64,000 bases of DNA from Planctomycetaceae bacterium (GTDB taxonomy: Bacteria; Planctomycetota; Planctomycetia; Planctomycetales; Planctomycetaceae): the NCBI GenBank assembly GCA_024742875.1, contig JANSXP010000018.1:1-64000 (forward strand), in the 5' to 3' direction. Shown here piece after piece: positions 7,645 to 32,860 of this stretch. Below the pieces are notes generated by a model. It did not search any database and was not told where the DNA came from. It saw only the letters and a program-made list of their open reading frames with translations. The position numbers and the translations under genes are program-made. The stretch's first letter is position 1. Each line of letters begins with the position of its first letter.

Positions 7645-8658
7645 TTACTCAGCACCCGCAGCCACAGTGGCCTGCTGTCGCGCTCGACGTTTTGCCACCA
7701 CACGTTTAACAATGACGTCAATGATGACGCCCAGCAGGATCACAAACCCGATCACAAACTCTTCCAGCGCATCGCTCACACCCAGCATCTGAATCGAATT
7801 CATCAGCAGCCGCATCAGCGCGGCCCCGAGAATAACGCCAAAAATGGATCCTTCACCACCACGCAGACTGCAGCCGCCCAGCACAGCGGCGGCAATCGCA
7901 TACAATTCGTAGAAGCTGCCAAACGTGCTCGGTTGCACGGAAACCACATCGAGGGCAAACAGCAGAGCCCCAAATCCACTGGTCACCGAACACAGCACGT
8001 ACGCGAGGATGATCATCTTTGTGGTGTTGATACCGCTCAGATGGGCGGCTTCGCGATTGCGTCCCAGGGCCATCAGATCACGGCCGTAAATCGTGCGATT
8101 CAGAAAGACGGCCGCCAGCACGCCAATCACGATCATGATCAGCAGTGCCACCGGCACATGCCTGGCCCAGGCCTGACCCTCAAACCAGGGCAGTTCGGAA
8201 AGTCGACCCACCATGAGACTGAGCGGCTGAAACCGTTCATCGGAATAGCCCATGGTACTGTCCGACACCAGATGCCGCGCCACCCCACGATACATCATGA
8301 GAGTACACAACGTGACCACGAACGGCTGCAGATCCAGCTTCGTCACCAGCAGCCCGTGAAACAGCCCCGCGCACACCGACATCGTCAGCAGCAGCAGCAG
8401 GCCGGTCGTCAGCGAGACATTGTGACCAATCACGAGAAAGGGAAACGTGACGGCGCACAACCCGATGAACGAGCCGATCGACAGGTCGATGCCACCTGTC
8501 ACGATCACAAATGATACGCCAATGCCGATGATTGCATACAGCGAGATGCGTTCCACGAGGTTGTACAGATTGAATGCAGACAGGAATCCGTCTCCACCGA
8601 TCGCGGTCACAATAAAGACCACGGCAATAACGGCAAGAATTCCAAGGTTCTTCTTCAT
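7645..8658 (-). CDS. Ribose-type sugar ABC transporter permease (RbsC-like)
   Basis: 337 residues with about ten hydrophobic helices and the BPD_transp_2 signature region: GGIDLSIGSFIGL near residues 60-72 and AAAVLGGCSLRGGEGSIFGVILGA near 235-260. It forms the membrane channel of a carbohydrate importer with the ATPase and binding protein encoded just upstream. An AGAGAA sequence precedes the ATG. Substrate cannot be told from the permease; ribose, xylose, allose and related systems share this family. Confidence 0.9.
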   Translation of the reverse strand: MKKNLGILAVIAVVFIVTAIGGDGFLSAFNLYNLVERISLYAIIGIGVSFVIVTGGIDLSIGSFIGLCAVTFPFLVIGHNVSLTTGLLLLLTMSVCAGLFHGLLVTKLDLQPFVVTLCTLMMYRGVARHLVSDSTMGYSDERFQPLSLMVGRLSELPWFEGQAWARHVPVALLIMIVIGVLAAVFLNRTIYGRDLMALGRNREAAHLSGINTTKMIILAYVLCSVTSGFGALLFALDVVSVQPSTFGSFYELYAIAAAVLGGCSLRGGEGSIFGVILGAALMRLLMNSIQMLGVSDALEEFVIGFVILLGVIIDVIVKRVVAKRRARQQATVAAGAE

Positions 8659-8723
8659 GGTTCTCTTTCGAATCTGGTCAGCGGCCGAGCCACCTGTCGA
8701 GACTTTCGTCAGACGCTCAGGAC

Positions 8724-10226
8724 TCAGCCACCGGTTGCCAGCTGCATCACGCTCTGTTCGGTCAGTTGTTCACGGGGCAGCTCTCCTGTGATGCGACCTT
8801 CGTGCATCACAATCACCCGGTCCGACATGCCGATGATTTCTTCCATTTCGCTGCTGACGAACAGAATCGCCATGCCGGCTGCTGCCAGCTGGTCCATCAG
8901 CGTGTAGATTTCGTGTTTGGCACCAATGTCGATACCCCGCGTGGGCTCATCGAGCAGCAGCACCGTCGGCTCCATGGCGAGCCATTTGCCCAGCACCACT
9001 TTCTGCTGGTTACCACCAGATAAAAACTGCACGGTCTGCAAATCGCCCGGCGTTTTGATCCGCAGCTTTTTCACCATGGCGGCGCTGTCAGCTTTTTCCT
9101 GCGCCTCATTCAGGAAGGCGCCCAAACGGCGATGTCGCCTCAACCCTGCCAGTCCGATATTAGTGCGAACGGCCAGTTCGAGAATCACGCCCTGCTTCTT
9201 GCGATCTTCCGGCACAAGCGCCAGCCCTGCTTCCACGGCATCCACGGGAGAACGCAGCCGCAACTGGCGGCCCCCCACTTTGACGTGCCCCTGCAAAGTG
9301 GGCCGTACTCCGAAGACGACCTCCAGCATTTCGGACCGTCCGGCCCCCACCAGTCCCGACACGCCCACAATTTCTCCCTGACGCACCTGAAAACTCAGGC
9401 GCTGACCAGGGTCCAGAGGCGATGTGATTGCGGACACTTCCAGCGCAACGTCGCCAGGAGGATGCGGTTGTCGGGAATAGAATTGAGACACATCGCGGCC
9501 GACCATCAGCTGGACCATGCTGTCGTGCGTCATTTCTTCACGCGTGAGTTCGCCGGCATTCTCACCATCACGAAAGACGGTCACTCGGTCGGCCAGCTCC
9601 ATCACCTCCCGCAGGCGGTGCGAAATGTAGATCACACTCACACCGTCGCAGCGCAGTTCTTTCACCACCTGCATCAGGCGTTCGGTCTCATGCTGACTCA
9701 GACTGGAGGTGGGTTCGTCCATGATCAGCACCCGGGCGTCGACCGACAGGGCACGAGCGATTTCCACCAGCTGCTGCTGACCGATGGGCAGATGATCGAC
9801 CAGTGTGTCCGGATCGACATTCAGTCCGAGGCGTTTCAGGAGCGCGCGCGACTTTTTTCGAATGGTGTCCTTGTCAATCAGGCCGAAACGCCGCGGCTCG
9901 CGTCCCAGGAAAATGTTGGCGCCCACATCCAGATTACCGGACAGATTGAGCTCCTGATGAATCAGAGCAATCCCCTGCGACTGCGACGTGTGAACCGAAT
10001 CCAGCGTCACAGAGTTTCCGGCAACCCTGATCGTTCCTTCGTCGGGCAGCTGCACCCCGGCGAGGATCTTCATCAACGTGCTCTTGCCCGCCCCGTTTTC
10101 ACCGATGAGCGCCAGCACTTCCCCCGGCTGGAGTGACAGGCAAACGTCTTTGAGCGCGGTCACGCCGGGGAAACGCTTCGTCACCCGATCGACGGACAGC
10201 AAGGGGGCGGGTTCCGATTCAGACAT
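8724..10226 (-). CDS. Ribose-type sugar ABC transporter ATP-binding protein (RbsA-like, duplicated ATPase)
   Basis: 500 residues with two tandem ABC domains, as in RbsA/XylG/MglA. First domain: Walker [10 protein letters not shown] near residue 40, signature [15 protein letters not shown], Walker [12 protein letters not shown]. Second domain: degenerate Walker [10 protein letters not shown] near 286, signature [15 protein letters not shown], Walker [12 protein letters not shown]. The degenerate second site is normal in this family. It powers sugar uptake with the permease 65 bases downstream and the lipoprotein receptor 66 bases upstream. Confidence 0.93.
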
Positions 10227-18523: not shown

Positions 18524-18556
18524 ACCGGGTGCCGTCCTGCGGACACCCGGTTTTTT
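18524..18556 (+). terminator. Rho-independent terminator after the H1-like/AKR gene
   Basis: An 8-base stem ACCGGGTG (18524-18531) pairs with CACCCGGT (18544-18551), with a 12-base loop and a run of six T (18551-18556). It lies 39 bases after the stop. Because it covers ATG 18529, that ATG is unlikely to start the next gene. Confidence 0.85.
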
Positions 18557-18594
18557 ATGGACGTCTCGCTCTCTGTTTTCCTCTGGGGTGCCGC

Positions 18595-19572
18595 GTGACC
18601 GCATCTGAAACGACTCTCTCCGGACAGCGCCAGGACGACGACAGCTCGGTCTTCCCACTGGTCATCACCCCCGATGACAACCGGATGACAGCGGACGATT
18701 CGCACCAGTGGATTGCCTCCTGCTCAGACGAACTGGTGCAGCGGTCCCGAGAACACGGTGCCATCCTGTTTCGCGGATTTCCCGTTCACACAGATCAGGA
18801 CTTTGATGCGTTTGTGGCTGCCTTCGGGCTCACCAATTTCACCTACGAAGACAGTCTGTCCAACGCGGTACGGACTAATCGCACCGAACGCGTTTTCACG
18901 GCCAATGAGGCGCCGGCACACGTCAACATCTGCCTGCACCACGAAATGGCGCAAACCCCCGTATATCCTTCTCGGCTGTTCTTTTTCTGTGAACAGGCGG
19001 CCGAGAGTGGCGGACAAACGCCCCTTTGCCGCAGTGATGTTCTGTTTCGTCGCATGCAGCAGCAGATGCCACAGTTTACGTCCGACTGCGCGGAAAAAGG
19101 CTTACTGTACACACACGTGATGCCGGCGACGGATGATGCAGGCTCCGGCATGGGTCGCAGCTGGCAAAGCACATGGAAGGCGGCCACCCGACAGGAAGCG
19201 GAGTCCCGCATGCAGGACCTGGATTATTCGTGGCAATGGCTGGACGACGGCTGCCTGAAAGTGACGACTCCCGTTATTCCGGCAGTCATGGAGTTGAGCG
19301 ATGGACGGTCAACCTTCTTCAACCAGCTGATTGCCGCCTTTCACGGCTGGAAAGACGCTCGCAACGATCCTTCGAAATCCATCACATTTGGTGACGGCTC
19401 CGAACTTTGCCAGCAAACGATGGATCAGGTCATTGCCATGGCAGAAGACATCACGTTTGACACTCCGTGGCAGAATGGGGACGTCGCCCTTGTCGACAAT
19501 TTTGTGGCCATGCACGGCCGCCGCACCTTCACGGGAACCCGGAAAGTGCTGGCCTCACTCGTCGCTTCCTGA
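18595..19572 (+). CDS. TauD/TfdA-family Fe(II)/2-oxoglutarate dioxygenase (SyrP-like)
   Basis: About 325 residues from GTG 18595 (VTASETT). The only ATG in frame further upstream is inside the terminator hairpin. Metal ligands are visible: HHEMAQ supplies the His-x-Glu pair and AMHGRRTFTGTRKV the distal His, with Arg residues near the end for 2-oxoglutarate. SRLFFFCEQAAESGGQTPLCRSDVLFRRM follows the pattern of SyrP-like amino-acid hydroxylases used in nonribosomal peptide pathways. It would hydroxylate a small molecule or carrier-bound amino acid. It is 46 bases upstream of a Gfo/Idh/MocA gene and the pair converges on the NRPS cluster, so a tailoring role is possible but unproven. Confidence 0.83.
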   Translation: MTASETTLSGQRQDDDSSVFPLVITPDDNRMTADDSHQWIASCSDELVQRSREHGAILFRGFPVHTDQDFDAFVAAFGLTNFTYEDSLSNAVRTNRTERVFTANEAPAHVNICLHHEMAQTPVYPSRLFFFCEQAAESGGQTPLCRSDVLFRRMQQQMPQFTSDCAEKGLLYTHVMPATDDAGSGMGRSWQSTWKAATRQEAESRMQDLDYSWQWLDDGCLKVTTPVIPAVMELSDGRSTFFNQLIAAFHGWKDARNDPSKSITFGDGSELCQQTMDQVIAMAEDITFDTPWQNGDVALVDNFVAMHGRRTFTGTRKVLASLVAS

Positions 19573-19618
19573 AAGCCGGGGAGTCCATTCCTTCGATCCC
19601 CGCACGTGAGACACATTG

Positions 19619-20659
19619 ATGACGGTCAAAATTGGACTACTGGGCGCGGGCTGGTTTGGTCGCGAAGCCCACCTTCGCAATCTCCTGAAACTCGCGGACG
19701 TAGAGGTGGTGGCAGCCAGCAGTCGCAGTGAAGCCAGCCGGGGGGCCGTGCAGCAGATCGGTGGCGATCAGATCGCCGTCTACGCCGACTGGCGTCAGGC
19801 TCTTAACCACGATGGTCTGGATGCCGTCATCGTGGCCCTGACCAACAACGAACACCATCCCGCCTGCCTCGACGCGTTTGCGCGCGGACTGCACGTGCTG
19901 TGCGAAAAGCCGCTGGGGTTGACGATCGCGGAGTGTGACGAAGTGATCGCCGCCGCGAACGCGGCCGGACGGGTCCTGCAGGTGGGCCACGAAATGCGGC
20001 ATCAGCGTTTGTATGAGCGGATGAAATCACTCGTGAATGACGGACGTGTCGGACGGCCGCGGATCATGTGGTGTCGCGAATATCGTGGACCAATGAGGCC
20101 CGGCTGGCGGTCTTCCGAAGAGTTGACCGGTGGCATGCTGCTGGAGAAGAACTGCCATCACTTTGACCTGTTCCACTGGATCCTCGAGGCGCGCCCGGTG
20201 AAAGTTGCCGCGTTTGGAGGGCGGGAAACGCTCGATCAAACCGAACTGCTGGACAACGCACAGGTCCTGGTCGAATACGAGGGCGGTCAAAGATCGGTCC
20301 TCGAAATCTGTCTGTTCGCGCCGACCGGGGGCGATTGTGAAATTGGTGTGGTCGGCACCAATGGTCGCATCGACACAAAGAACCAGGCCATTCACCTGGA
20401 GTATCACCAGTTTGCACCGGCGGAGCACTTTCAGGAGACAGTTCCTGACCCGGACGATGAGGCGGGATTCCAGGATGCCTCCGGACGGGTGGATCGCGGC
20501 ATCAAGGCGGAACTGGCCCACTTTGTGGAGTGCTGTCAGACAGGCGAACGCCCACTCAACGATGGAGAATCAGCGCGTTGGAATGTGGCCGTGTGCCTGG
20601 CCGCTCAGCAGGCGGTTGCCACCGGACAGGTGGTGAAGATCAGCGACCTGTTGAGTTGA
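19619..20659 (+). CDS. Gfo/Idh/MocA-family NAD(P)-dependent oxidoreductase
   Basis: About 346 residues. The N-terminal Rossmann fold begins with GLLGAGWFG; the family EKP motif is CEKPLG near residue 100; the C-terminal half is the alpha/beta substrate domain (GGMLLEKNCHHFDLFHWIL). Cytoplasmic, with no signal peptide. Members oxidise or reduce sugars, inositols and related polyols; the substrate here is unknown. ATG 19619 is preferred over the in-frame TTG just before it. It follows the TauD-like gene closely, and its stop is 31 bases from the convergent NRPS-cluster end. Confidence 0.87.
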   Translation: MTVKIGLLGAGWFGREAHLRNLLKLADVEVVAASSRSEASRGAVQQIGGDQIAVYADWRQALNHDGLDAVIVALTNNEHHPACLDAFARGLHVLCEKPLGLTIAECDEVIAAANAAGRVLQVGHEMRHQRLYERMKSLVNDGRVGRPRIMWCREYRGPMRPGWRSSEELTGGMLLEKNCHHFDLFHWILEARPVKVAAFGGRETLDQTELLDNAQVLVEYEGGQRSVLEICLFAPTGGDCEIGVVGTNGRIDTKNQAIHLEYHQFAPAEHFQETVPDPDDEAGFQDASGRVDRGIKAELAHFVECCQTGERPLNDGESARWNVAVCLAAQQAVATGQVVKISDLLS

Positions 20660-20690: not shown

Positions 20691-22115
20691 TCACTGATGT
20701 GCGGACAAAGTCCGCACGCGGTCGAGGGCCGCTTCAATTTCGGCGGCCAGCAGCGCGCCCGTTTGCCGCTCGAACAGATCGTCACGTGAGATTGGAACCG
20801 ACACCAGCTGGAGTCGCTCTGATGGCCCACCCCAGCCGTGCAGATCGTCGATTTCCAGATCGGAAAAGTCGGACGTGCCCGCCTTGGTACAGCGAAACAG
20901 GCTCACGTGTCCGTCGTACGGCTGCGGTTGAAAGGCCCAGCCCATATGGGTGCCGGGGCGATTTAAACTCACATCACCGGTTGCCTGCACGCGTTGCTGA
21001 CGACGCGCCCATTTCCACAGACGGACGGCAAGTGCTGGCATCTGGCTGACCAGTCGCAGCGGGTGCACGCCCTGCAGCCGACTGGCGATTCGCTGCCGCA
21101 GATGTTTCTCCCGAAATCCCTGCGGATTGGGCGTGTCGAGAATCCCCACAAAATCGACTCGTTCGCCGGCGGCCGTCAGTCGGCGCGCCAATTCCCATGC
21201 GACAAATGCTCCTTCGCAGTTACCCACAAGACGATAGGGCCCTTGGGGCTGAATTTTTCGAATCTGATCCAGAAACTCGGGCACCACATCTTCCACCACC
21301 GTCGTGTCTTCGGTGTCGTCACTCATCAATACGGGGCAGTAGCAGGTATGATTCCTGACCTGCCTGACAATGTGCTCAAACACCGACGCGGCGCGACACT
21401 TGGGAGGCAGAAAAAACAGAGGGGGACGGGCGTTCTGCTCGCTCAGATAGATCATGTTGCCCCGAGGCGAATCCTCGGTGTGGGCAGGCGAGGGCGGCTG
21501 ATTCTCCGGGTGCGGGTTGCGGCCAGGGACAGTCGGCGAAGCTGCCAACGGGTCCTGGAGACAATTCAGCCACTGCGCCTGAGCGGCCAGGGTCGGGTGC
21601 TCGGCAAACTGCGATGGCGTCATCCGCAGGCCGGCCTCAGACATCATCGCCAGCACGCGAATGACGTCCAGAGAGTCACCGCCGCACGAAAAAAAGTCAG
21701 CGTCATCCGCCACAGATCGTCCCAGTACCTGATGCCAGATCTCACGAATCCGCTCCTGCTGCGGGTGATTTTCGTTTCCGGGCTGTGCTGGCTGACGGAA
21801 CGCAGCGGGCACAGCGGGCGTTGCTGGTGTGCAGTCAACCAGCCGGCGACGATCCAGCTTGCCACTGGACGTACGTGGCAGTCGGTTGACCTGCAGGAGA
21901 CAGTCCGGGCGCATTCGAGGTGGCAGCAGCTCGGCCAAATCCGCCTGCAGGCAATCCGTCGACAGATCGGTGGCATCACAATCCGTTGTGAACCACGCAT
22001 ACAGCTGCTGTCTGGCGGGCAGGCTGCTGTTCTGACGATTGATGCGATCCGCGAGGATCGTGCGCTGACTGGTTGTCAGTTGTGCGAGGCGTGCAGCCAG
22101 GGAGACTGAGGACAT
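20691..22115 (-). CDS. NRPS terminal protein: split adenylation end, carrier domain, atypical thioesterase
   Basis: 474 residues. Residues 35-95 are the C-terminal lid of an adenylation domain: LYAWFTT, LLPPRMRP (A9) and RLPRTSSGKLDRR (A10 with the catalytic Lys near 86). The rest of that domain is in the upstream NRPS. A carrier domain follows (FFSCGGDSLD, Ser near 148), then an alpha/beta-hydrolase thioesterase from about 230. Its nucleophile elbow reads GNCEGA, with Cys near residue 300 instead of Ser (codon TGC). The usual oxyanion HG is replaced by LPPKC, and the usual C-terminal GDH region reads ISRDD, so the catalytic His is not obvious. The protein should complete module 2 and release or modify the product. 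Confidence 0.85.
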   Translation of the reverse strand: MSSVSLAARLAQLTTSQRTILADRINRQNSSLPARQQLYAWFTTDCDATDLSTDCLQADLAELLPPRMRPDCLLQVNRLPRTSSGKLDRRRLVDCTPATPAVPAAFRQPAQPGNENHPQQERIREIWHQVLGRSVADDADFFSCGGDSLDVIRVLAMMSEAGLRMTPSQFAEHPTLAAQAQWLNCLQDPLAASPTVPGRNPHPENQPPSPAHTEDSPRGNMIYLSEQNARPPLFFLPPKCRAASVFEHIVRQVRNHTCYCPVLMSDDTEDTTVVEDVVPEFLDQIRKIQPQGPYRLVGNCEGAFVAWELARRLTAAGERVDFVGILDTPNPQGFREKHLRQRIASRLQGVHPLRLVSQMPALAVRLWKWARRQQRVQATGDVSLNRPGTHMGWAFQPQPYDGHVSLFRCTKAGTSDFSDLEIDDLHGWGGPSERLQLVSVPISRDDLFERQTGALLAAEIEAALDRVRTLSAHQ

Positions 22116-22177
22116 AAAAAGAACTCTCGGAGCAGGATGTAGTGTCGTAAGCTGGGGGGATGCGGCTCAGGAATGAC

Positions 22178-25100
22178 CTAACGGATGGCACGCACGACCA
22201 CCATGGAGTCGGCCCACCACGCATCACGCGTGTCGGCAGGCACATCCAGAGAAATCACTTTCATTTGAATCTCAGAGAAATGACGCAGCAGACTGCGCTG
22301 ATGGCGTCGGCTCAGTGAGTCCATCTCTGTCGTCATGTAAGTAAACACTCCGCGTGGCCGCAGTAACTCGGCAGCGACTTCGAAAAAGTGTTCGGCGTAG
22401 GTGGCGCTGTTGAGCACGTGTTGTTCGAACTCTGTTTCGTTCATGGGAAACGCGTGAAAAAACACCGCGTCAAAATCTTCCAGCTGGCCAAGTGATTCCT
22501 GCCAGCGACCATGAATCAACCGGACACTGCTCCTGGAATGTCTGCGGTGCCACGGGCGAAAATGTGCGTCGATGCTGTGAGCGTTCATTTCGATGATCGT
22601 ATGGGAGTGCACCTTCTGCTGCTGAATGAAGTCCGCCGCCACACCGCGCCCAAACCCGATTTCCAGCACGTCATCCCCACACTGACAGCCATACTCTGCC
22701 ATCGCCTGCATCAGCGGCGTCTGCCAGTCTTCCATAATTTCCTGATCTGTCAGCTGCGCGGCTGCCAGATCACGGGGCAGGTGATGCTCGTCGTTTCCAG
22801 CCACCAGCGAGGGAGCGATGTCATGCAGGTGCTGCAGGTTGTCGACCAGTTCCTTCATGGCCTGACGAATCATCCACCGTCGCTGTCGGGGCCGGGGCGC
22901 TGCGATGAAACCGCCGTGGTGCACATGCAGGTCCACGCTGACCTCATCGGAATGCTCGCGGACAAGCCGATCATCGCGGCCATCATCGGAATCCGTGCGA
23001 GCCGGCGCGGTCCTCTCGTCCGCCGACAACGCCAGCTGCTCCACATCGCTGAGCAGCTGATGGGCCAGCTGCACGTCCATGCCCTGCAGGGCCTGCAGCA
23101 GCGTCTGAACATCACTGGCCACTTCCGGCTCCTCGTTTGCCAGCCCGACGGCCACCTCGTGCACACCAGGCAGAGCTGACAGGACGGCTTCGATTTCTTC
23201 CACCTCAATGCGGTGACCGCGAATCTTGATCTGCGTATCCCGCCGTCCCAGAAACTGGAGGGTGCCATCTGTGGTCAGCCGCGCCAGATCCCCCGTGCGG
23301 TAACACGGCTGACCGTCGATCACAGGAAAACGCTGTCGGGTCAGTTCCTCATCATTACGATAACCTTCCGCCAGTCGTGAACCGGACAGGACAATCTCGC
23401 CCGGCACACCGGCCGGCACTGGCTGCAGGTGACTGTCCAGCAGCTGCACAGAAATTCCCGGGACAGAGCGACCAATCGAAACGGGCACTTTGCCGAGCGC
23501 TGCCGGATCAGGCCGCAGCGCACTGCAGGTGGCCCAGACAGAAGCTTCCGTTGGACCGTACTCGTTGTACAGCCGTGATTGCGGCAGCTTGTCATGATGC
23601 TCAGCCACCAAAGGCGGCGGACACGATTCTCCCGCGACAATCACAGTCTGCAAAGTGTGCAGCAGCACGCCGTCGTTATGCTGCAAAAGCAAACGGTAGA
23701 GGGTGGGCAGACACAGCGTATGACTGACACCGAAGCGTTCGATCAACTCCCCGAGTCTGACCACGTCCTGAATGTCATCATCTGCCGGCAGAACGAGTGT
23801 TCCTCCGGTGGTGAGCGTCCAGAACAGCCCGGCCACGGAACTGTCGAACCAGAGTGGCGAGAGCAGCAGAAATGCGTCCGGATTCTCAGCGTAGAATTCC
23901 TGGCGCGCCATCGTCGATTCCCACAACGCCTGGTGACTGACCTCAACGCCTTTGGGCTGCCCCGTCGAACCTGAAGTGAACATCACATAGGCCAGGTCAG
24001 GCTTCACGATCGCGTCTGCAGGCGGCTGGCTGTCAGGAGCCACAAACTCACCGGGAACGACGACGGGCAGATCGGCGTTCACGCAGGGAGCATAGGTGGA
24101 ATCACAGACGACAGCGGCGATGCCAGCGCCCGCCATCATGCTCTGCAGGCGTGCTGGCGGCTGATGTGGGTCCATGGGCACATAAGCGGCGCCGGCTTTC
24201 AGAATTCCCAGTACAGCCGCCACGGTTTCCCCTGAACGATCCCGCAGCACGGCCACGCTGTGTCCTTCTCTGACACCGCACGCCTGTAACTGGTCACAGA
24301 TGATGCCCGCCCGATCATTCAGCTGAGCAAACGTCAGCCGACCATCTCCTGCCTCGACAGCCACCGCGGCGGGGCGGGCAGCTGCCTGCAGCTCAATCTG
24401 CCGACGGACATCGGCTCGCACCAGAGCGGCCGGCTGTTGCAGCAGACTGCCGTCACGACCGGGACGATTGCACGCTTCGAGAAGACGACGATCGGCATCC
24501 CCCCCAAAGGGCGCCTCACCGACTGGTCGTTCAAACGCACTGACCAGTTGCTCCACAAGCGCACACCAGTGGCTCTGAATGCGTGATACGGTCGCGGCGC
24601 GGAAGACGCTGTCCCGATACTCCAGCTGGCAGGGCAGCACGTCGCTCGACCGGTCGTCCGTCACAAACAAAGTCAGATCAAATTTTGCCGTCTGCAGATC
24701 CCGCACCCGGCTGTGACGAATCGCCACAGATCCAAAGCAGGCAGGTGGTGGAGCAGCCTGCATCACAAACATGGTCTGATAGGGCAACTGCCCGGTCACG
24801 CCGTCGAGCCCCGCTGCCGCCAGAATGTCCGGCACGCTGAGTGTGAATGCACGACTGGCCTGTCGAAACTCGGCTTCCGTGGCAACTACCTGATCCACAA
24901 AACGTGTCTCCGGTTCGATATGACAGGGCAGGGGCAACGCCTCAACCAGAAAGCCAACCGTGTGAAACAGCCGGGCATCCGCCCGTCGTGTCACGGGGAC
25001 GCCCACGGCAAAGTCCGTCTCCTGCGAATAGCGCTGCAGCAGAACCTGCCAGGCAGACAGCAGAACGCTGTTCAGTGTGACCTGATGATCGGCGGCAAAC

Positions 25101-28100
25101 TGCCGCACAGCGCACGTGACATCGGGTGGCAGCTCAAAGTCAAAAAGTCGCCCGCTGGACGGGCCCGCCAGTTCGCTGTCCCAGTCGCGAGGAAGCGGCA
25201 GCCGGGAAACAACGGGCTGCAGTTTTTCCTGCCAGTAAGTTCGATCGGCTACGCTCGCCTGAGCGCGATGCTGCTGCCGCCAGTGGGCAAACTGCGAGGC
25301 GGCAGCAGCGGGTGCTCGCTCGCTGTGTGTCGCCTGGCTGTCTCGTCGTGCGCTATACAGTTGCCCCAGTTCTTCCAGGATCAGTCGAACCGAATACTGA
25401 TCGAGGACAATATGATGCCCCGTAAGCACGAGCACACTGGTCTGCTCGCTAAGAATCACGTGGGCCAGTCGAACCAGCTCCCGTCCGTCCGACAGAAAGT
25501 CCCGCGCGGCCTCGGCACAGACGACAGTGTCAAGCTCCTCCCGGTCAGCTGCGGAAATCACCTCCTTTGCCATCCGAGCCTCCCGACTAACGAACAGCTG
25601 CGGCAGACCGTCCACCGTTCGCAGTCCGGTCGTCAGAGCCTGATGACGATCAATCAGCAGATCGATGCAGGCAGACAGATCGGCCGCATCCAGCAAACCA
25701 TCACATTCACTCACAACCTGCAGCTGATAGGCGGCAGGAGTGGTCGTGTTCTGCAGGACGTACCACAGCCCCTGCTGTGCGGGCGACATTGTCACAGCAG
25801 TGGCCTCCTGAACGGACGCTGTGGGGTCCTTCGCGGGCGTGCGCTGCCCCTCCTGTTCACAGAGCGCTGAGAGCTCACGAATGGTGGGACGGTCAAACAC
25901 GTCACTCATTGACAGCCCTATCCCCAGATCAGCCGCCGTCGCAATCAGTCGCAGCACGTCGAGGGAATCTCCGCCGGACTCAAACAGATTGGTGGTCACA
26001 GAGCAGGTGGTGTCGCCGATAATTTCCCGCCACACCGCCAGCAAACGCTCCTCCGGGCCGGAAGCAGTCGCAACAGTTTCGATGATACAATTGTCTGCCA
26101 TCAGCTGGTGCAAAGACGGCAGGTCGGGTTTGCCGTTGATTGTACGGGGCAAATCCTGAGACTGGACGATAATGCGCGTCGGCACATGAGAACGCGGCAA
26201 CCGCTGCACCAGTTGGGACCTCACCCGATCAGACGTCACGTCGCCACATACCCACGTGACCAGCACAGGCTCTCGCTCTGGCTGTCGCAGGACATCCATA
26301 ACCGCATCACGCACACCCGACAGACTTCGCAGTACTGCCAGAATGCCGGACGGTTCGATGCGATGTCCGCGAATCTTCAGCTGATCATCTGTCCGCCCAG
26401 CAAACTGCAGCGTCCCGTCGCCGCGCAACCGCACAAGGTCCCCCGTGCGATACCATCGCCGCGACCGCGAGTCCGCCCGTACATTCACGAATCGCTGTGC
26501 CGTCAGTTCGGCATTGCCCCGATAGCCGTCCGCCAGACCAATGCCGCCAATCAGCAGTTCGCCCGTCATCCCCGGCGGCACCAGCTGGCCAAACGGATCT
26601 TCAATGCGCAGAACATTTCCACTGACCGGTCGGCCGATGCTGGCGGGAGCCGGCCGATGATCGGCGGGATCAATCACATGCAGCGTGGCGCAGATGGTGG
26701 CCTCTGTCGGTCCATATCCGTTAATCACGGTCAACCCGTCGACGGCCGCAAGGCGGGCCAGCGTTGACTGGGGAATGGGCTCGACGCCCACAAGCAGGCG
26801 TTTTAAAGCGGACTGATTTTCCCGTTCCAGATGGTCGGCAAACGCTTCCACGAAAAACGGTGGCAGATAGGCGGACGTAACCTGCTCACGCGACAGCCAC
26901 GCAAAAAACTGCTGCGGCGAGTTGCGGGTGCGATCATCGGGCAGGCAGAGAGTTCTGCCAAACAGCAAAGCCGAGAATACTTCGTAGATGGCCACATCAA
27001 AGCCCACGTTCGTCCACCACGCCGAACGCTCTCCTGCCTCCGGCGACAGACGTTCAAAATCCGCCAGCAGATTCAGCAGCGACGCGTCACTGACCTGCAC
27101 GGCGTTGGGCCGACCTGTGGTGCCGGACGTTGACAGCACGTAGCACGCCCGATCGTGAGTGTGCGATGTGGACGACGGTGACTGCAAAGCGACCACCACG
27201 GGCTCATCGACCGCCTCAACCACATGCGTGGCGCCGCTTTCGGACAGCAGAGCGGCGATGCGTTCCTGCGGCTGATCCACATCAACCGGCATAAAGGCAC
27301 GGCCTGCCGCCAGAACCCCAAGAAACGCGGGCAGCGCATGCTCGTTTCTCTGACACAGCACGGGCACCACGCCGGCCGAATTTCCAGAGCGGAGAGAAAC
27401 GCCCAGACGCTGTGCGGTATGTCGCAACTGGGCGTACGTCATTTGGGTCCTGTCTGAGGAGATCGCTATCCGCGTCGCACAACCCTCGGCGACGTCCAGA
27501 AAGCGATCCCAGACCCGATCCGCTTCCGGGGCTGGCAGGGCAGGAGTCTGCAGACTGCGTTCGTTGAGGGCCTGCTGCGACTTTGACAGCCAGTTAATGT
27601 CGCCAATGGGCAGATGGCATCCCTCAATCACCGACAGCAGCATCGCGCGAAACTGCTCGATCACTGCCGCATGCTGGGCAAACGGAAAATGCTCCAGATT
27701 GAAATCAAAAATCAGCTCCCAGTTGTCAGTTCCTCCGGACTGGTGGGCGGACACGGTCAGTCGCCGCTCAGGATCTCCAAATCCGTTGTGTCGCCAGGAC
27801 GCGGCGACTGGCAGATCGGCGAAATCTTCCACCGAAAGGTCCAGCAGGTTGAGCGCGACGTCAAAGGCGGTTGCTGTCTCCGGCTGCATGCACCCAGGCA
27901 CTGCATGCTGCAGGAATCCTCGCATTTCGGCGGCCACCCGGTCGGCCACCTGCGCGGGATTATCCTGCGCATCAACACCCACCTCAAACGGCAGCAGCTG
28001 CATGAACAGCCCAATGGTGTTGCGAAACTCGGGCTGTGAACGTCCGTGGCTGGTCACTCCAAAGCGAACCGCCTGACGAGGTCGCAGTCGGAACAGCAGC

Positions 28101-28915
28101 ACGGATAGTGCCGTGGCGAACAGCTGAAACTGGCTCAGCGCGGGAGAAAACTGCCGCCACGGCGTCTGTGTGACGGCCTCATTGATCGCTCGATTTTCGT
28201 CCTCGGTCAAAGAAACGACCACGCGTTTGTGATGCAGCCGCAGTTCCGAATTGCCGGACGCGTACCACGTCTGCAGAGCAAGGGGTGTGGTTCGCTGTGC
28301 CCACCATTCCTGGTGGGACGCCATCATGGTGGACTGCAGTTTTTCGGTTTCATATTCGTGGTAGGCGGCATACTGAGGCAGCTCAGGGGAGGGCAGCTCA
28401 TGCAGGAGGGCCTGATAATGCTCAGCCAGATGCCGCACCAGCAGGTTGGTATTCCAGCCATCCGTAATCAGGTGGTGCAGCTTCAGATACCACTGCCAGG
28501 TGGACTCACCTGTTCGAATCAGGCAGCTGTCAAACAGACAGTGCGTCGGTCTCAGAGGTCGGACGATGCACGCACGCACATATTCTTCGGCAGATAAGTC
28601 CGCTCGCGCGTCAGCCGAGTAATCGAGAAATCGACAGGCCTCCGGCACCCGACTGGCCGTGCCGATGTCAGACCAGTCGCGATCGGTGGCCACGATTCGC
28701 AGCAGTTCGCACGACTGCACCAGACGGCGAAACGCCGCCCGAAACACGCCCACGTCCAGCGTACCCTGCAGGTGAAACACATAGGGCACTTCGTACAGCG
28801 GCACATCAGGATGCTTCTGCTGGCCCAGCCTGATCAACTGCTGATTGGAAGTCAGTTGTCGTCCGTGGGACAGCGGATCTGTCAGAGGAGAAGCGGACAC
28901 GTCCATCGTACTCAT
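22178..28915 (-). CDS. Two-module nonribosomal peptide synthetase with embedded GAMT-like methyltransferase
   Basis: About 2245 residues from ATG 28915 (MSTMDVS, GGTGA upstream); longer starts would overlap the preceding gene. Domain order: C1 20-440 (HHLITDG at 147-153), A1 460-930 (TSGTTGRPN, where the usual Lys is Asn; NGYGPTE; RTGDL), carrier 955-1020 (Ser984), C2 1042-1470 (HHIVLDQ instead of HHxxxDG), A2 1502-1930 (FTSGSTGQPKG, NEYGPTE, RTGDL, up to RGHRIEVEEIE), linker, then a class I SAM methyltransferase 2057-2245 (VLEIGFGRG). That domain follows guanidinoacetate N-methyltransferase: EIMEDWQTPLM, HTIIEMN, FHAFPM, LLRPRGVFTYM. By-eye specificity residues: A1 D-V-Y-Y-L-G-G-I-C, A2 D-S-A-L-I-A-E-V-W; substrates not assigned. 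A2 has no A9/A10; the next gene supplies them. Confidence 0.92.
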   Translation of the reverse strand: MSTMDVSASPLTDPLSHGRQLTSNQQLIRLGQQKHPDVPLYEVPYVFHLQGTLDVGVFRAAFRRLVQSCELLRIVATDRDWSDIGTASRVPEACRFLDYSADARADLSAEEYVRACIVRPLRPTHCLFDSCLIRTGESTWQWYLKLHHLITDGWNTNLLVRHLAEHYQALLHELPSPELPQYAAYHEYETEKLQSTMMASHQEWWAQRTTPLALQTWYASGNSELRLHHKRVVVSLTEDENRAINEAVTQTPWRQFSPALSQFQLFATALSVLLFRLRPRQAVRFGVTSHGRSQPEFRNTIGLFMQLLPFEVGVDAQDNPAQVADRVAAEMRGFLQHAVPGCMQPETATAFDVALNLLDLSVEDFADLPVAASWRHNGFGDPERRLTVSAHQSGGTDNWELIFDFNLEHFPFAQHAAVIEQFRAMLLSVIEGCHLPIGDINWLSKSQQALNERSLQTPALPAPEADRVWDRFLDVAEGCATRIAISSDRTQMTYAQLRHTAQRLGVSLRSGNSAGVVPVLCQRNEHALPAFLGVLAAGRAFMPVDVDQPQERIAALLSESGATHVVEAVDEPVVVALQSPSSTSHTHDRACYVLSTSGTTGRPNAVQVSDASLLNLLADFERLSPEAGERSAWWTNVGFDVAIYEVFSALLFGRTLCLPDDRTRNSPQQFFAWLSREQVTSAYLPPFFVEAFADHLERENQSALKRLLVGVEPIPQSTLARLAAVDGLTVINGYGPTEATICATLHVIDPADHRPAPASIGRPVSGNVLRIEDPFGQLVPPGMTGELLIGGIGLADGYRGNAELTAQRFVNVRADSRSRRWYRTGDLVRLRGDGTLQFAGRTDDQLKIRGHRIEPSGILAVLRSLSGVRDAVMDVLRQPEREPVLVTWVCGDVTSDRVRSQLVQRLPRSHVPTRIIVQSQDLPRTINGKPDLPSLHQLMADNCIIETVATASGPEERLLAVWREIIGDTTCSVTTNLFESGGDSLDVLRLIATAADLGIGLSMSDVFDRPTIRELSALCEQEGQRTPAKDPTASVQEATAVTMSPAQQGLWYVLQNTTTPAAYQLQVVSECDGLLDAADLSACIDLLIDRHQALTTGLRTVDGLPQLFVSREARMAKEVISAADREELDTVVCAEAARDFLSDGRELVRLAHVILSEQTSVLVLTGHHIVLDQYSVRLILEELGQLYSARRDSQATHSERAPAAAASQFAHWRQQHRAQASVADRTYWQEKLQPVVSRLPLPRDWDSELAGPSSGRLFDFELPPDVTCAVRQFAADHQVTLNSVLLSAWQVLLQRYSQETDFAVGVPVTRRADARLFHTVGFLVEALPLPCHIEPETRFVDQVVATEAEFRQASRAFTLSVPDILAAAGLDGVTGQLPYQTMFVMQAAPPPACFGSVAIRHSRVRDLQTAKFDLTLFVTDDRSSDVLPCQLEYRDSVFRAATVSRIQSHWCALVEQLVSAFERPVGEAPFGGDADRRLLEACNRPGRDGSLLQQPAALVRADVRRQIELQAAARPAAVAVEAGDGRLTFAQLNDRAGIICDQLQACGVREGHSVAVLRDRSGETVAAVLGILKAGAAYVPMDPHQPPARLQSMMAGAGIAAVVCDSTYAPCVNADLPVVVPGEFVAPDSQPPADAIVKPDLAYVMFTSGSTGQPKGVEVSHQALWESTMARQEFYAENPDAFLLLSPLWFDSSVAGLFWTLTTGGTLVLPADDDIQDVVRLGELIERFGVSHTLCLPTLYRLLLQHNDGVLLHTLQTVIVAGESCPPPLVAEHHDKLPQSRLYNEYGPTEASVWATCSALRPDPAALGKVPVSIGRSVPGISVQLLDSHLQPVPAGVPGEIVLSGSRLAEGYRNDEELTRQRFPVIDGQPCYRTGDLARLTTDGTLQFLGRRDTQIKIRGHRIEVEEIEAVLSALPGVHEVAVGLANEEPEVASDVQTLLQALQGMDVQLAHQLLSDVEQLALSADERTAPARTDSDDGRDDRLVREHSDEVSVDLHVHHGGFIAAPRPRQRRWMIRQAMKELVDNLQHLHDIAPSLVAGNDEHHLPRDLAAAQLTDQEIMEDWQTPLMQAMAEYGCQCGDDVLEIGFGRGVAADFIQQQKVHSHTIIEMNAHSIDAHFRPWHRRHSRSSVRLIHGRWQESLGQLEDFDAVFFHAFPMNETEFEQHVLNSATYAEHFFEVAAELLRPRGVFTYMTTEMDSLSRRHQRSLLRHFSEIQMKVISLDVPADTRDAWWADSMVVVRAIR

Positions 28916-28937
28916 AGGTTCACCGTGACGAAATTCT

Positions 28938-29828
28938 TCAGACGGCTCGATCGGGCGTCTGTGCGACAACAAAAAAGAACGTTGGCTCAGCCCCCTCACC
29001 GGACTCCACGTGCTGGATCCGCAAACCAGCCTGCTGCAGTTCGCGACGAACCTGAGTCACAGACAGGTGATGCCAGAACAGACCGGAGTAAAGCCGTTCG
29101 CCGAATTCCGTGGCCGTATTCCCGAGTGTCAGCCACGACGTGAGCCGCGCAACGGCAAATCGCAGGGTCGTGCCGGGTAATGATCGGGCAGGCCGGCGGA
29201 CGGTCGAAAAAACGATCAGACCGCCGTCTGCACACAGCTGGCAGCAGCGGTGCAGAAAGGCGGACCGGCGATCGGCGCCCTGCTGCGTTGAGTACATCCA
29301 GCTGGATGAATAGACCACATCAAAACCGGGACTCACATTCAGCGCTTCAAAATCGGCCACCACAAAGTTGGCCGCGAACGACTGCTCGGCCGCAAACCGC
29401 TGCGCGGATTCGATCATGGCCGGCATGCGGTCAACCCCCGTGACATCAAATCCGCCGCCGGCAAACACTTCTGCCTCGCGTCCCTGACCACAGAATGCAT
29501 CCAGCATTCGCGGTCCCGGAGCATATGATTGCAGCACCGGCAGGATGCGGCTTTCGTACGGCGGCTGATAGTGCCGGGGATCATAGTGACGTGTGTGTGT
29601 CTGGTAGGTATTCGCCACCAGATCATCGACATCTGTGCGCCGCATCAGTCCCAGCGAAATCCCCTCGGTCAGGACAGACAGGGCGGGGATCAGCAGGCGA
29701 CTGATAAACGCCGGAAATCGACGAACCCCGTTTGTGCAGGCCAGCAGCCCCGAGGACAGTCTGACCCGCCAGCTGCAACCTGCAGGTTTCGATTCGGTGG
29801 TGAGAAAATGAGAAGCAGTCACGCTCAC
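28938..29828 (-). CDS. Class I SAM-dependent methyltransferase in the NRPS cluster
   Basis: 296 residues. Motif I is MLDAFCGQGREAEVFAGGG near residues 108-126, followed by the acidic ribose-binding position in VTGVDRMPAMIESA and motif II-like FDVVYSSSWMYS. The C-terminal half carries GGLIVFSTVRRP and ends with a strand FFFVVAQTP. The first 70 residues are an extra helical region. The start overlaps the carrier-protein stop as ATGA and the stop is 22 bases before the NRPS start, so it is translationally tied to the cluster. Probably a tailoring N-, O- or C-methyltransferase; the acceptor cannot be inferred. Confidence 0.85.
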   Translation of the reverse strand: MSVTASHFLTTESKPAGCSWRVRLSSGLLACTNGVRRFPAFISRLLIPALSVLTEGISLGLMRRTDVDDLVANTYQTHTRHYDPRHYQPPYESRILPVLQSYAPGPRMLDAFCGQGREAEVFAGGGFDVTGVDRMPAMIESAQRFAAEQSFAANFVVADFEALNVSPGFDVVYSSSWMYSTQQGADRRSAFLHRCCQLCADGGLIVFSTVRRPARSLPGTTLRFAVARLTSWLTLGNTATEFGERLYSGLFWHHLSVTQVRRELQQAGLRIQHVESGEGAEPTFFFVVAQTPDRAV

Positions 29829-30106
29829 AAGGCACCTTCCTGTCGTTCGCAGATGAGTGCGGCAATCGCCGACGCATTCAGAAAATTCTCCATCGTGACA
29901 TCTTCGTGGGCGATCGTGACGGCAAACGCAGCCTCCAGAAATGCCACCAGACGCATCACGCCCAGTGAGTCGACGGTGCCGGAGGCCAGCAGATCAGTAT
30001 CCGCCTGCAGTGTGACCGGACCGCTGCCGTTGAGCAGTTCCTCATGGAGAAACTGCAGGATCTGACGGGTGGCCTCCGTCCGGCTGAATGAGGACTGATC
30101 GATCAT
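29825..30106 (-). CDS. Stand-alone carrier protein (PltL-like)
   Basis: 93 residues, a single acyl/peptidyl carrier domain. GTVDSLGVMRLVAFLE contains the phosphopantetheine attachment Ser47 and closely follows the motif of PltL/RedO-type prolyl carrier proteins (D-S-x-G-I/V-M-R-L-V-x-F-x-E). It should receive the amino acid activated by the adjacent AMP ligase and present it to the dehydrogenase, then to the first condensation domain. The start sits one base after the ligase stop and the end overlaps the methyltransferase start. Confidence 0.9.
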   Translation of the reverse strand: MIDQSSFSRTEATRQILQFLHEELLNGSGPVTLQADTDLLASGTVDSLGVMRLVAFLEAAFAVTIAHEDVTMENFLNASAIAALICERQEGAL

Positions 30107-30107
30107 G

Positions 30108-31712
30108 TCATGACTCCTTTTTGTTGTGGGTCGTTAGTTCGGCCGCCATTTGCTGCCCCTGGCGACGATGATCAATTTTTCCGCTGGTGGTACGGGCGAA
30201 AGTCGGCACCCGCTGAATCACACTGGGGACGGCCCAGCGGGGCAGTTCCGACTGCAGCCAGCGCTGCAGCGGGGCGTCCAGTGCCTGCCGGTCCACACTG
30301 GTGTAGACGGCATGCAGCTGCTGACTGCCATCAGCCGGCACACAGCTCACACTGGCTTCAAGCACGCCCGGAAATCGCGTCATAGCGTTCTCCACAGCGT
30401 CCAGCTCGACACGATGCCCGCGAACCTTCACCTGCCGATCCTGCCGTCCGACAAAGACAAGTTCGCCGTCAGCGTTCTGTCGCACCACATCTCCGGTGCG
30501 ATAAAATCGCCGCCCTGTGGCCGGGCAAAAACAGAAGGTGGGCTGATCATCAGCGGAATGGCCCAGGTAGTGGCTCATCACGGTCCCGCTGCTGACCAGC
30601 AGTTCTCCGGCCTCCCCCGGCTCGACGACAACATCGTCCGCGTCAACCACGCGACACAGACCATCACCCCATGGTCGTCCAATGGGGATTTCTGAACGAT
30701 CCGGCTCAGCGCATTCCTGCCAGGGGACGAAATGCCGCACACAGCAGACGTTGGTTTCCGCTGGTCCGTAAGCATTGCTGAATGCCACGTGGCACAGTCG
30801 ACTTCGCAGATCCTGCAGCGATCGCAGCGGGAACGTTTCCCCGGCAAAAACGATCCAGCGCAGTGAATCCAGTAAACGCTGGTCCAGTACTCCACGCTCG
30901 AGCAGCTGGATCAGCAGATACGGAACGCAGTACAGAACGGAGACCCGATGCTGTTCCAGCTGCAAAGCGAAACTGGCAGGAAATCGCAGCACGGGGGCCG
31001 GAATCAGCACTGTCCGTGCGGCCGCATGCACGGAGGCAAACAGCGCAAATGTTGACATGTCAAAGTGCAGAGGACAGACACCGGCCACCATATCGGCTGA
31101 CGAGAGGCGATAAGCGGTTGCAGTCAGTTCTGCGTACTGCCCGGCTGACTGATGAGTGTGCACGATGCCCTTCGGACGCCCCGTCGAGCCAGATGTGAAG
31201 ATCACATAAGCCGGCTGACGGGGAGTCGTCGCAGGACGTACGAACGGATCGCGACCGGATGCCGCCAGAAACCCGGAGAAGCAGACAACCTCCAGTCGCG
31301 ATCGTTGTTCGGGTTGATTTTCGCCACTCACAACCAGACGCAGTGACGGTGCGTGAGTCTCTAATGTGTGCCGCGTATTGAGTGACAGCGCTGTGATGAC
31401 AAGGACAGTGGCGTCACATTCCTCGATCAGCGCGCAGAGCCGCTGATCACTGGATGAGTGATCAACGGGAACGTACACCGCGCCGGCTTTCAGACAGCCA
31501 TAGATCGCGATCACTGCTGGCAGCGACAGGTCAGCACAGATAGCCACATGGTCCCCTGGCGTCACGCCAGCGTGCTGCAGCGCCACGGCAAATGCCGTGC
31601 TTTGTTCGTCCAGCTGTCGCCAGGTGAGACGGTCCCTGCCGCACACAAACGCAGTCTGCTCCGGCAGCGCCTGGGCGGCACGCTCCAGGTTTTGGTGCAG
31701 CAGAATCGTCAT
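30108..31712 (-). CDS. Stand-alone amino-acid AMP ligase, probable prolyl-AMP ligase (PltF-like)
   Basis: 534 residues, a complete ANL adenylation enzyme: A3 FTSGSTGRPKG (172-182), A4 region CPLHFDMS (213-220), A5 NAYGPAET, A8 RTGDV, A10 TTSGKIDHR with the catalytic Lys. The HFDMS segment resembles the HFDLS of PltF/PigI/RedM L-prolyl-AMP ligases. It lies directly between the dehydrogenase and the carrier protein, the same trio found in pyrrole pathways. It would activate L-proline (inference) and load the carrier. The ATG overlaps the upstream stop by one base (TGATG). Confidence 0.88.
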   Translation of the reverse strand: MTILLHQNLERAAQALPEQTAFVCGRDRLTWRQLDEQSTAFAVALQHAGVTPGDHVAICADLSLPAVIAIYGCLKAGAVYVPVDHSSSDQRLCALIEECDATVLVITALSLNTRHTLETHAPSLRLVVSGENQPEQRSRLEVVCFSGFLAASGRDPFVRPATTPRQPAYVIFTSGSTGRPKGIVHTHQSAGQYAELTATAYRLSSADMVAGVCPLHFDMSTFALFASVHAAARTVLIPAPVLRFPASFALQLEQHRVSVLYCVPYLLIQLLERGVLDQRLLDSLRWIVFAGETFPLRSLQDLRSRLCHVAFSNAYGPAETNVCCVRHFVPWQECAEPDRSEIPIGRPWGDGLCRVVDADDVVVEPGEAGELLVSSGTVMSHYLGHSADDQPTFCFCPATGRRFYRTGDVVRQNADGELVFVGRQDRQVKVRGHRVELDAVENAMTRFPGVLEASVSCVPADGSQQLHAVYTSVDRQALDAPLQRWLQSELPRWAVPSVIQRVPTFARTTSGKIDHRRQGQQMAAELTTHNKKES

Positions 31713-32860
31713 CAGGCCACTCCCAGCATGGAGGAGATGATGTTCCGCTGGATGTCTGAGGTGCCCGCGTAAAAGACGCCCCCCATCGCATCACGCAGGT
31801 CTCGTTCCACCTCGTACTCAGCCATGTAACCACGTCCACCGTGGACCCGCATGGCGTCCATACTGCTGTCCACAAATGACTCGCTCAGGTGCAGCTTCAG
31901 TGCGGCGGTTTCTGCCAGCGCCGACTTGTTCTTCGACTTCAGCCAGGCAACCCGGTAGAGCAGCCAGCGGCAGGTTTCCAGACGCACCTTCATATTGGCC
32001 ACTCGATGGGCGACCGCCTGAAAACTGCCAATGGGACGATCGAACTGCCGACGCGAACGAGCGTAAACCACGCAGTCTTCCAGCTGTCGCTGCATGGCGC
32101 CCACCTGGCAGGCCAGAATGCAGCAGCGTTCGACTTCCAGCAGTCCGTGCAGCGCCGCCATTTCGCCTTCACTGCCCAGTCGCGCGTCGGCGGCCACACA
32201 GCATTCACTCAGCGACAGCCGACCGAAGGGAACCGTTCGCAGTCCCATTTTCGCATCGGCCACTCCCACTTTCAGGCCTGGGTTGTCACGGCGAATCAGA
32301 AATGTGGCCAGCCCCCAGCGGCCCTTGTCCGGATCCACTGTGGCGGTCACCAGAAACAGGTCAGCCAGCGGCGCCAAAGTCACCATGCACTTCTCTCCGC
32401 ACAGCACATAGCCGTCCGACGTTTTGCGGGCGGTGGTCTGAATACCGAAAGCGTCTGATCCAGCCTCGGGCTCCGTCATGGCGTGAGCCGCCTTCCACTG
32501 GCCAGAGCACAGTCGGGGCAGGGTGGACTGTTTCTGCGCTTCGGTGCCCAGTCGCAGCAGGGGCAGCTGTACGGACCACATCTGAGCGTTCAGCGCCAAA
32601 AGCAGGCCCGCATCCCGACAGGCGGCCCCCAGCATTTCCATGGCAGCAACGGACATCAGAATGTCGGCCGAAGCACGCCCGCCATACGCGGCATCCACAT
32701 TCATTCCCTGGATGCCGAAGTCGGCACACTTCTGCCACAGAGTCTGAGAAAAACTCCCCGTGTGATCCCGGCGGCAGACATCGTCGACCAGATTCTGGCG
32801 GGCAAAGGCGGCCACCTGATCTCGATACTGCTGCTGCTGCTCTGTCCACTCGAACTGCAC
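31712..32860 (-). CDS. Acyl-CoA-dehydrogenase-like flavoenzyme, probable prolyl-carrier-protein dehydrogenase (PltE-like)
   Basis: 382 residues with the full acyl-CoA dehydrogenase layout: helical N-terminus, AMTEPEAGSD flavin-binding region near 128, beta domain, and C-terminal helices with RQFDRPIGSFQAVAHRVANM, HGGRGYMAEYEVERDLRD and FYAGTSDIQRNIIS. Resemblance to PltE/PigA/RedW is close in spacing and in details such as CRDAGL and SGQWKAAHA. These enzymes oxidise carrier-bound proline to pyrrole-2-carboxyl using FAD. A generic acyl-CoA role is less likely given the ligase and carrier directly downstream. First gene of the cluster; 33 bases separate it from the upstream membrane protein gene. 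Confidence 0.88.
   Translation of the reverse strand: MQFEWTEQQQQYRDQVAAFARQNLVDDVCRRDHTGSFSQTLWQKCADFGIQGMNVDAAYGGRASADILMSVAAMEMLGAACRDAGLLLALNAQMWSVQLPLLRLGTEAQKQSTLPRLCSGQWKAAHAMTEPEAGSDAFGIQTTARKTSDGYVLCGEKCMVTLAPLADLFLVTATVDPDKGRWGLATFLIRRDNPGLKVGVADAKMGLRTVPFGRLSLSECCVAADARLGSEGEMAALHGLLEVERCCILACQVGAMQRQLEDCVVYARSRRQFDRPIGSFQAVAHRVANMKVRLETCRWLLYRVAWLKSKNKSALAETAALKLHLSESFVDSSMDAMRVHGGRGYMAEYEVERDLRDAMGGVFYAGTSDIQRNIISSMLGVA

Follow-up and report, generated by a model that had tools for sequence, protein, structure and literature searches.

The locus described here raises the question of whether one adenylation (A) domain of a nonribosomal peptide synthetase (NRPS) can be shared between the products of two genes. 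It lies on the minus strand of a 64,000-nucleotide (nt) stretch of a Planctomycetaceae bacterium genome (GCA_024742875.1, contig JANSXP010000018.1, positions 1 to 64,000), hereafter called the window. A domains are usually regarded as single-chain enzymes whose lid swings on a hinge in cis. In the window, the core of the second A domain (A2) of a large NRPS is followed by a methyltransferase (MT) domain and a stop codon, and the part of the lid that carries the catalytic Lys is encoded by the next gene, together with a peptidyl carrier protein (PCP) and a thioesterase (TE). We consider it highly probable that A2 is a naturally split, interrupted A domain, and that the proteins of genes 1 and 2 assemble into one working enzyme. 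Comparisons at the sequence level establish its anatomy, the split and the conservation of the split. The features of the two genes are the following.

22178..28999, minus strand: gene 1, an NRPS of 2273 amino acids (aa) with the order condensation (C)-A1-PCP-C-A2 (core to A8)-linker-MT, its stop codon directly after the MT
23147..24403, minus strand: A2 core (residues 1533-1951), substrate code DSACIAEVW, in an open reading frame (ORF) without lid
23189..23221, minus strand: hinge motif A8 of A2, RGHRIEVEEIE
23126..23203 (with A8, about 23126-23221), minus strand: first half of the A2 lid, on gene 1, a predicted post-A8 helix and strand
22910..23125, minus strand: linker of low conservation between the half-lid and the MT
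22181..22909, minus strand: S-adenosylmethionine (SAM) MT domain resembling guanidinoacetate N-methyltransferase (GAMT), residues 2031-2273, GAMT-aligned part 22262-22753
22454..22456, minus strand: His2182 of the MT, opposite the Asp at chain position 134 of GAMT 1xcj_A
22116..22177, minus strand: intergenic gap of 62 nt, with a GAGAG run 8 nt ahead of the gene 2 ATG
20691..22115, minus strand: gene 2, 474 aa, composed of a leader, the remaining lid half of A2, a PCP and a TE
22008..22115, minus strand: gene 2 leader, ~36 residues, aligned-family consensus RI..LS...R.LL...L
21840..22007, minus strand: second half of the A2 lid, comprising the other strand plus motifs A9 and A10
21858-21860, minus strand: catalytic Lys86 of A10, motif RLPRTSSGKLDRR, on gene 2
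21567..21755, minus strand: PCP of the split module, on gene 2
20694..21422, minus strand: TE whose nucleophile position has Cys (GNCEG), where Ser is usual

The A8 side and the A9 side of one A domain are thus both present, with the MT between them, on two genes; given the stop after the MT and the lid on the next gene, the window does not encode A-MT-A as one continuous polypeptide. The ORF and motif positions bear out the preliminary description of this DNA, according to which A2 ends shortly past A8 and is followed by an MT and a stop, and the 62-nt separation and the change of frame between the genes are also as it gave them. Its statement that the lid opens the next gene needs amending: A9 and A10 with the Lys are indeed on gene 2, but the leader of ~36 residues comes first. 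Similarly, gene 1 does lack A9 and A10, but not the whole lid, as A8 and the following helix and strand remain on it. The strands and helix were assigned by the standard A-domain fold, which we assume to hold for A2. Judging from these motifs, the cut falls within the lid subdomain and not at its edge. Cores and lids are in balance in the window, as A1 carries a lid in cis and gene 2 contributes a lid but no core.

The reading frame of gene 2 contains a stop 5' of its ATG, with no MT-like or lid-like continuation detectable by eye, and the C-terminus of the window MT coincides with that of its homologues; these features do not support a simple frameshift. No sigma-70-like promoter was found in 21900-22400, and three terminator-like matches at 22283-22363 are all inside the MT coding region. 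Pfam gave the window MT no name above cut-off. A search of the PDB matched it to GAMT (E 2e-17, residues 110-273 of the 300-aa query); it is similar in sequence to the GAMT structures 3orh and 1xcj, but unlike GAMT it is fused to an NRPS.

Is the same region a single gene elsewhere? Scanning one genome per species with the MT yielded 80 loci, 60 of which were analysed in detail; the other 20 (L084-L099, L101-L104) are partial, weak matches and were left out. In none of the 60 was a lid found in the reading frame of the MT. That frame ends 0-7 residues past the matched domain in 55 loci, which are fully informative, the five uninformative frames being broken (L033, L041) or running off the contig (L079, L082, L083). 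A split A-core was found in 49 of the 60 loci, right beside the MT in 48 and a few kb upstream in L054, which brings the number of split cores, with the window, to 50. The core is fused ahead of the MT in 21 loci (in L082 the contig is cut off inside the MT and the lid is unseen), and it is a separate gene just upstream of the MT in 27, giving a three-gene form. In 45 of the 49, the lid and PCP are on the next gene of the same strand, with no A-core before that lid; three of the remaining four reach a contig edge (L030, L082, L083), and L029 has its lid-PCP-TE on the opposite strand. This last unit (L029:2722-4191) might be a true separate trans unit or reflect a misassembled metagenome contig. 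Of the analysed loci not counted as split, two are truncated at contig ends (L036, L079) and two are broken (L033, L041); no split A-core was seen near the MT in L053, L072, L077, L078, L080 and L081.

The split is also present in the close relatives L025, L026, L170 and L172. L171, apparently the same sequence as L026, and L105, within the L025 genome, were not counted again. Apart from the window, the split cores carry 14 phylum labels: Bacteroidota, Nitrospirota, Planctomycetota, Pseudomonadota, Actinomycetota, Rhodothermota, Calditrichota, Verrucomicrobiota, Acidobacteriota, Gemmatimonadota, Candidatus Krumholzibacteriota, Cyanobacteriota, Chloroflexota and Thermodesulfobacteriota, single ones of which may be wrong because many loci come from metagenome bins. 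In a tree of the A-cores, the joint between A-core and MT switches between fused and separate at least four times, and the joint between MT and lid is closed in none of these loci. The core of L076 aligned poorly; it was kept in the split count and omitted from the tree. In a search of 148 relatives of the window, the MT query matched nothing beyond the genome of the window itself and a single stand-alone MT (G047). Its ten matches in 392 genomes of the phylum comprise the window, G047, another stand-alone MT (G171) and seven matches around A8 only. Full-length MTs were detected in 2 of 150 Streptomyces genomes, and the search of plasmids returned no match.

Other A domains served as controls. 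The analysed loci and the window contain 104 A-cores, including the 50 split ones. In 45 the lid is in the same frame, either directly (35, two of them in the window) or after an insert of ~360 residues (10), and four cores run off contigs. For the five others, none of which is beside the MT (L069, L073, L074, L076, L078), a small lid model found no lid. The ~360-residue insert gave a QueC-like PP-loop Pfam match in both cases tested (L040, L100). A domains with this insert, located before the MT module and unsplit, are found at L040:786-5003, L100:3594-7613 and in other loci. Their code resembles DLTLIGEVG, close to the code DLTKIGEVGK of the Asp/Asn group (PMC12283262). As these domains keep their lid in cis, an insert by itself does not force a split. 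A domains interrupted by a classic NRPS N-methyltransferase (N-MT) have the lid in cis in 31 of 32 cases, one of which, L184, has a very weak lid score and no visible A-core; the exception, L194, looks by eye like a frame break. This sample consists of the 30 best matches in 150 Streptomyces genomes and, weak matches left aside, 2 in the 148 relatives of the window. It leans to fused forms, having been collected as the best matches to an N-MT that was itself fused.

Can such a lid work in trans? A precedent is Crz1/Crz2 of the corallorazine pathway of Corallococcus coralloides, whose layout C-A-T-C-A-MT (T, thiolation domain), stop, then A9/A10-T-release domain on the next gene, with the MT after A8, is like that of the window (PMC11342130). 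The window shares the essential arrangement, an A core and MT ending in a stop, with A9/A10, PCP and a release domain on the adjacent gene. Crz1.2 was inactive with Gly alone and active when mixed 1:1 with Crz2 (PMC11342130). Crz differs from the window in its A2, which accepts Gly, in its thioreductase release domain and in its product, a lipodipeptide; furthermore, the available part of that article describes no three-gene form, of which there are 27 here. Its authors called the split unique and considered an erroneous recombination event as one possible origin (PMC11342130). Among the matches listed, the corallorazine article was the only one on split A domains in the open-licence PMC literature, where we found no report of a GAMT-like MT with NRPSs. 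A split A domain was already known from Crz, and its distribution is wider than that precedent suggests.

Two Streptomyces loci of the Crz type (L234, L235) encode A-PCP-C-A-N-MT followed by a lid-PCP with a thioreductase match. Their lid genes could start at -4 relative to the MT stop and have no RIxxLS leader. Both loci were picked for coincident N-MT and thioreductase matches and hence are not a random sample; a thioreductase-domain search in 150 Streptomyces genomes (20 regions, many cut by contig ends) recognized no split in 50 loci examined. Their MTs are classic NRPS N-MTs without phmmer match to the window MT, which is itself not of that class (E 0.092 against the N-MT of L020). From these look-alikes and the wording of the article (PMC11342130), we infer that Crz itself has a classic N-MT. 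The presence of unrelated MTs suggests that the fission arose at least twice, and the window family and the Crz type, as judged from L234 and L235, probably split independently at the same joint.

Interrupted A domains of the TioS, KtzH, McyA and PchF type have their lid in cis on one polypeptide. They resemble the window in that an MT between A8 and A9 combines adenylation and methylation in one module (PMC8949500, PMC11355689), and differ from it in that the window uses two polypeptides and 27 of its relatives three. The MT insertion point reported for A domains matches the cut point in the window (PMC8949500).

The substrate code pattern DSxxxAEVW is found in 34 of the 50 split cores, which form a single clade (SH-aLRT 100). 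The code positions of A2 were placed by motif, on the assumption that GrsA numbering applies. DSALIAEVWK is listed among the codes for His and as accepting the beta-hydroxylated form (PMC12283262). With positions set in this way, the window code DSACIAEVW equals it at 8 of the 9 positions that the core encodes, the last of the ten being a Lys encoded by gene 2. The open-licence literature search on bleomycin histidine found nothing.

The MT active site varies with the code. Aligned to 1xcj_A, the MTs can be compared at positions 45 and 134, which are Glu and Asp in that chain. In GAMT, Glu45 binds the guanidino group. A catalytic role has been described for Asp134 (PMC12471008). The window MT has Gln and His at these positions and thus lacks the catalytic Asp. 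As read by pattern, the 34 DSxxxAEVW loci have Gln at the first position in 34/34 and His at the second in 32/32 readable cases; the other 16 split loci have Asp in 16/16 and Glu in 15/16. Where no split core was counted, the MT belongs to the Gln/His type in L033, L036, L079 and L100 and to the Glu/Asp type in L053, L072 and L078. These correlations suggest that the MT and the A-core are matched to one another.

Among the alternatives to a split but working enzyme, the one that survives best, though quite unlikely, is that the module is decayed: A2 would be dead, the gene 2 lid a remnant, and the module either bypassed or supplied by a different A domain, for example the stand-alone enzyme upstream. 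Such feeding in trans of modules with an inactive A domain or none is known for syringomycin and albicidin (PMC8949500), and a stand-alone A enzyme is indeed present in the operon. The conservation of the parts across many phyla argues against decay. Motifs A3, A5, A7 and A8 are kept in split cores as in cis cores, as is the code, a Lys motif can be read at A10 in 47 of the 48 split lids (a set that includes L033 and L041), and the PCP Ser is invariant in 33 aligned rows. Also contrary to decay, the ratios of nonsynonymous to synonymous substitution rates (dN/dS) are well below 1 for the lid. The A2 core has a ratio of 0.29 between L025 and L026, the MT 0.16 and the lid half 0.26; in four other pairs, the ratio for the lid-PCP part ranges from 0.15 to 0.20. 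By these estimates the lid is under purifying selection in relatives. Further signs of function are the leader pattern common to the aligned family of split-lid genes and the closeness of the two genes: in 41 of 48 loci a start codon for the lid gene lies between -4 and +14 nt of the stop of the MT, a generous figure because the start nearest to that stop was chosen and L033 and L041 are included. This proximity suggests coupled translation.

Less probable still is that the gene 2 lid is no subunit of A2 and acts for the PCP only, extending it at the N-terminus or helping it to dock. In favour of this, both leader and half-lid are short pieces at the N-terminus, where docking elements often sit. 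A mere docking piece would not account for the retention of the A10 Lys in 47 of 48 lids, nor for split cores that, the cut-off L082 aside, have no lid in their own ORF, and the same piece restores activity in Crz (PMC11342130).

An assembly error or frameshift concealing a single gene is barely credible: the window comes from a draft genome in 168 contigs and frame breaks do occur in such data (L041 and, by eye, L194), but the split recurs in many independent assemblies, including those of the close relatives and records titled complete genome or chromosome (L067, L058), a stop interrupts the gene 2 frame ahead of the ATG, where no homologous sequence can be recognized, and the MT ends at its family C-terminus.

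Several observations nevertheless weigh against a conserved, functional split. The split lid of L076 (Streptomyces, 8429-9382), next to the poorly aligned core, has no readable A10 Lys motif; this locus may be decayed. The 62-nt gap of the window exceeds that of most relatives. The leader (dN/dS ~0.86, 36 codons) and the linker (~0.71, 64 codons) are the fastest parts compared between L025 and L026, which does not help the idea that they dock. The probable assignment of His leans on a single paper (PMC12283262), and the covariation of code and MT is weak functional evidence because it stems essentially from one deep tree branch. Finally, the Gln/His-type MT of L100 has no adjoining split A-core, an A domain with its own lid being found upstream, and in L111 (Streptomyces contig, 1-1448, from one of the 150 genomes) A, cis lid, PCP and MT are in one frame with nothing split.

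Taking the split A2 as a working enzyme, the following sequence of events can be proposed. One protein would comprise the A2 core, half of the lid and the fused GAMT-like MT; a second, from the next gene of the operon, would contribute the remaining part of the lid along with the PCP and TE. Both would assemble, probably via the gene 2 leader and the gene 1 linker or MT, restoring one A domain with the catalytic Lys supplied in trans. The Crz precedent supports the view of the preliminary description that the lid must act across two polypeptides. According to its code, A2 would probably activate histidine or beta-hydroxyhistidine and load it onto the gene 2 PCP, after which the MT may methylate the PCP-bound amino acid and the TE release the product.

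A broader proposal, possible rather than probable in our estimation, is that multi-subunit adenylation enzymes are an old and stable NRPS design, spanning at least 14 phyla, with two subunits here and three in Bacteroidota and others. Strands from separate proteins would complement each other to complete the lid, and the GAMT-like MT at the joint, matched to the activated amino acid, would methylate histidine, perhaps on its side chain. As the same fission would have occurred separately in the Crz type with an unrelated MT, the MT/lid joint might be a natural place to cut and recombine NRPSs. With 50 split cores in two- and three-gene forms, a lid in trans becomes a general and testable design that offers natural split points for NRPS engineering. 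It also prompts one to ask how a protein that bears a PCP brings its half-lid to the matching core. Automated annotation may also be affected, in that such modules could look broken or devoid of an A domain.

The TE at the end of gene 2 also varies among loci. A similar motif with Cys as the nucleophile is found in the close relative L170 and in L027, L041, L057 and L068, and with Ser in L029, L031, L033, L035, L040 and L065; the motif pattern had no match in several other loci, e.g. L025 and L026. Cys-containing TEs are known from beta-lactone formation, as in obafluorin.

Ahead of the NRPS gene, the operon contains the following genes.

28938..29828, minus strand: separate SAM methyltransferase gene, upstream; a similar gene precedes the NRPS gene in L025
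29825..30106, minus strand: stand-alone carrier protein of 93 aa, identified by eye
30108..31712, minus strand: stand-alone adenylation enzyme with its lid in cis
31712..32860, minus strand: acyl-CoA-dehydrogenase-like protein, nearest to the NCBIfam families PigA and RedW (prolyl-PCP dehydrogenase type), below both cut-offs

The genes at 29825-32860 might form a pyrrole-type starter pathway, with matches below the family cut-offs. As a guess, the dehydrogenase, the stand-alone A enzyme, the carrier and the second MT would be compatible with a short peptide whose starter is modified. On the plus strand, convergent on the cluster, 18529-20659 encodes a TauD-family dioxygenase, weakly similar to VioC/GntD hydroxylases, and a Gfo/Idh/MocA oxidoreductase; neither is among the three downstream genes tested in L025. 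In L111 the frame after the MT resembles a dioxygenase, as judged by eye. In L025, the lid-PCP gene is followed by a 419-aa gene without Pfam match (L025:10134-11393), and a 489-aa ORF occupies the same place in L026.

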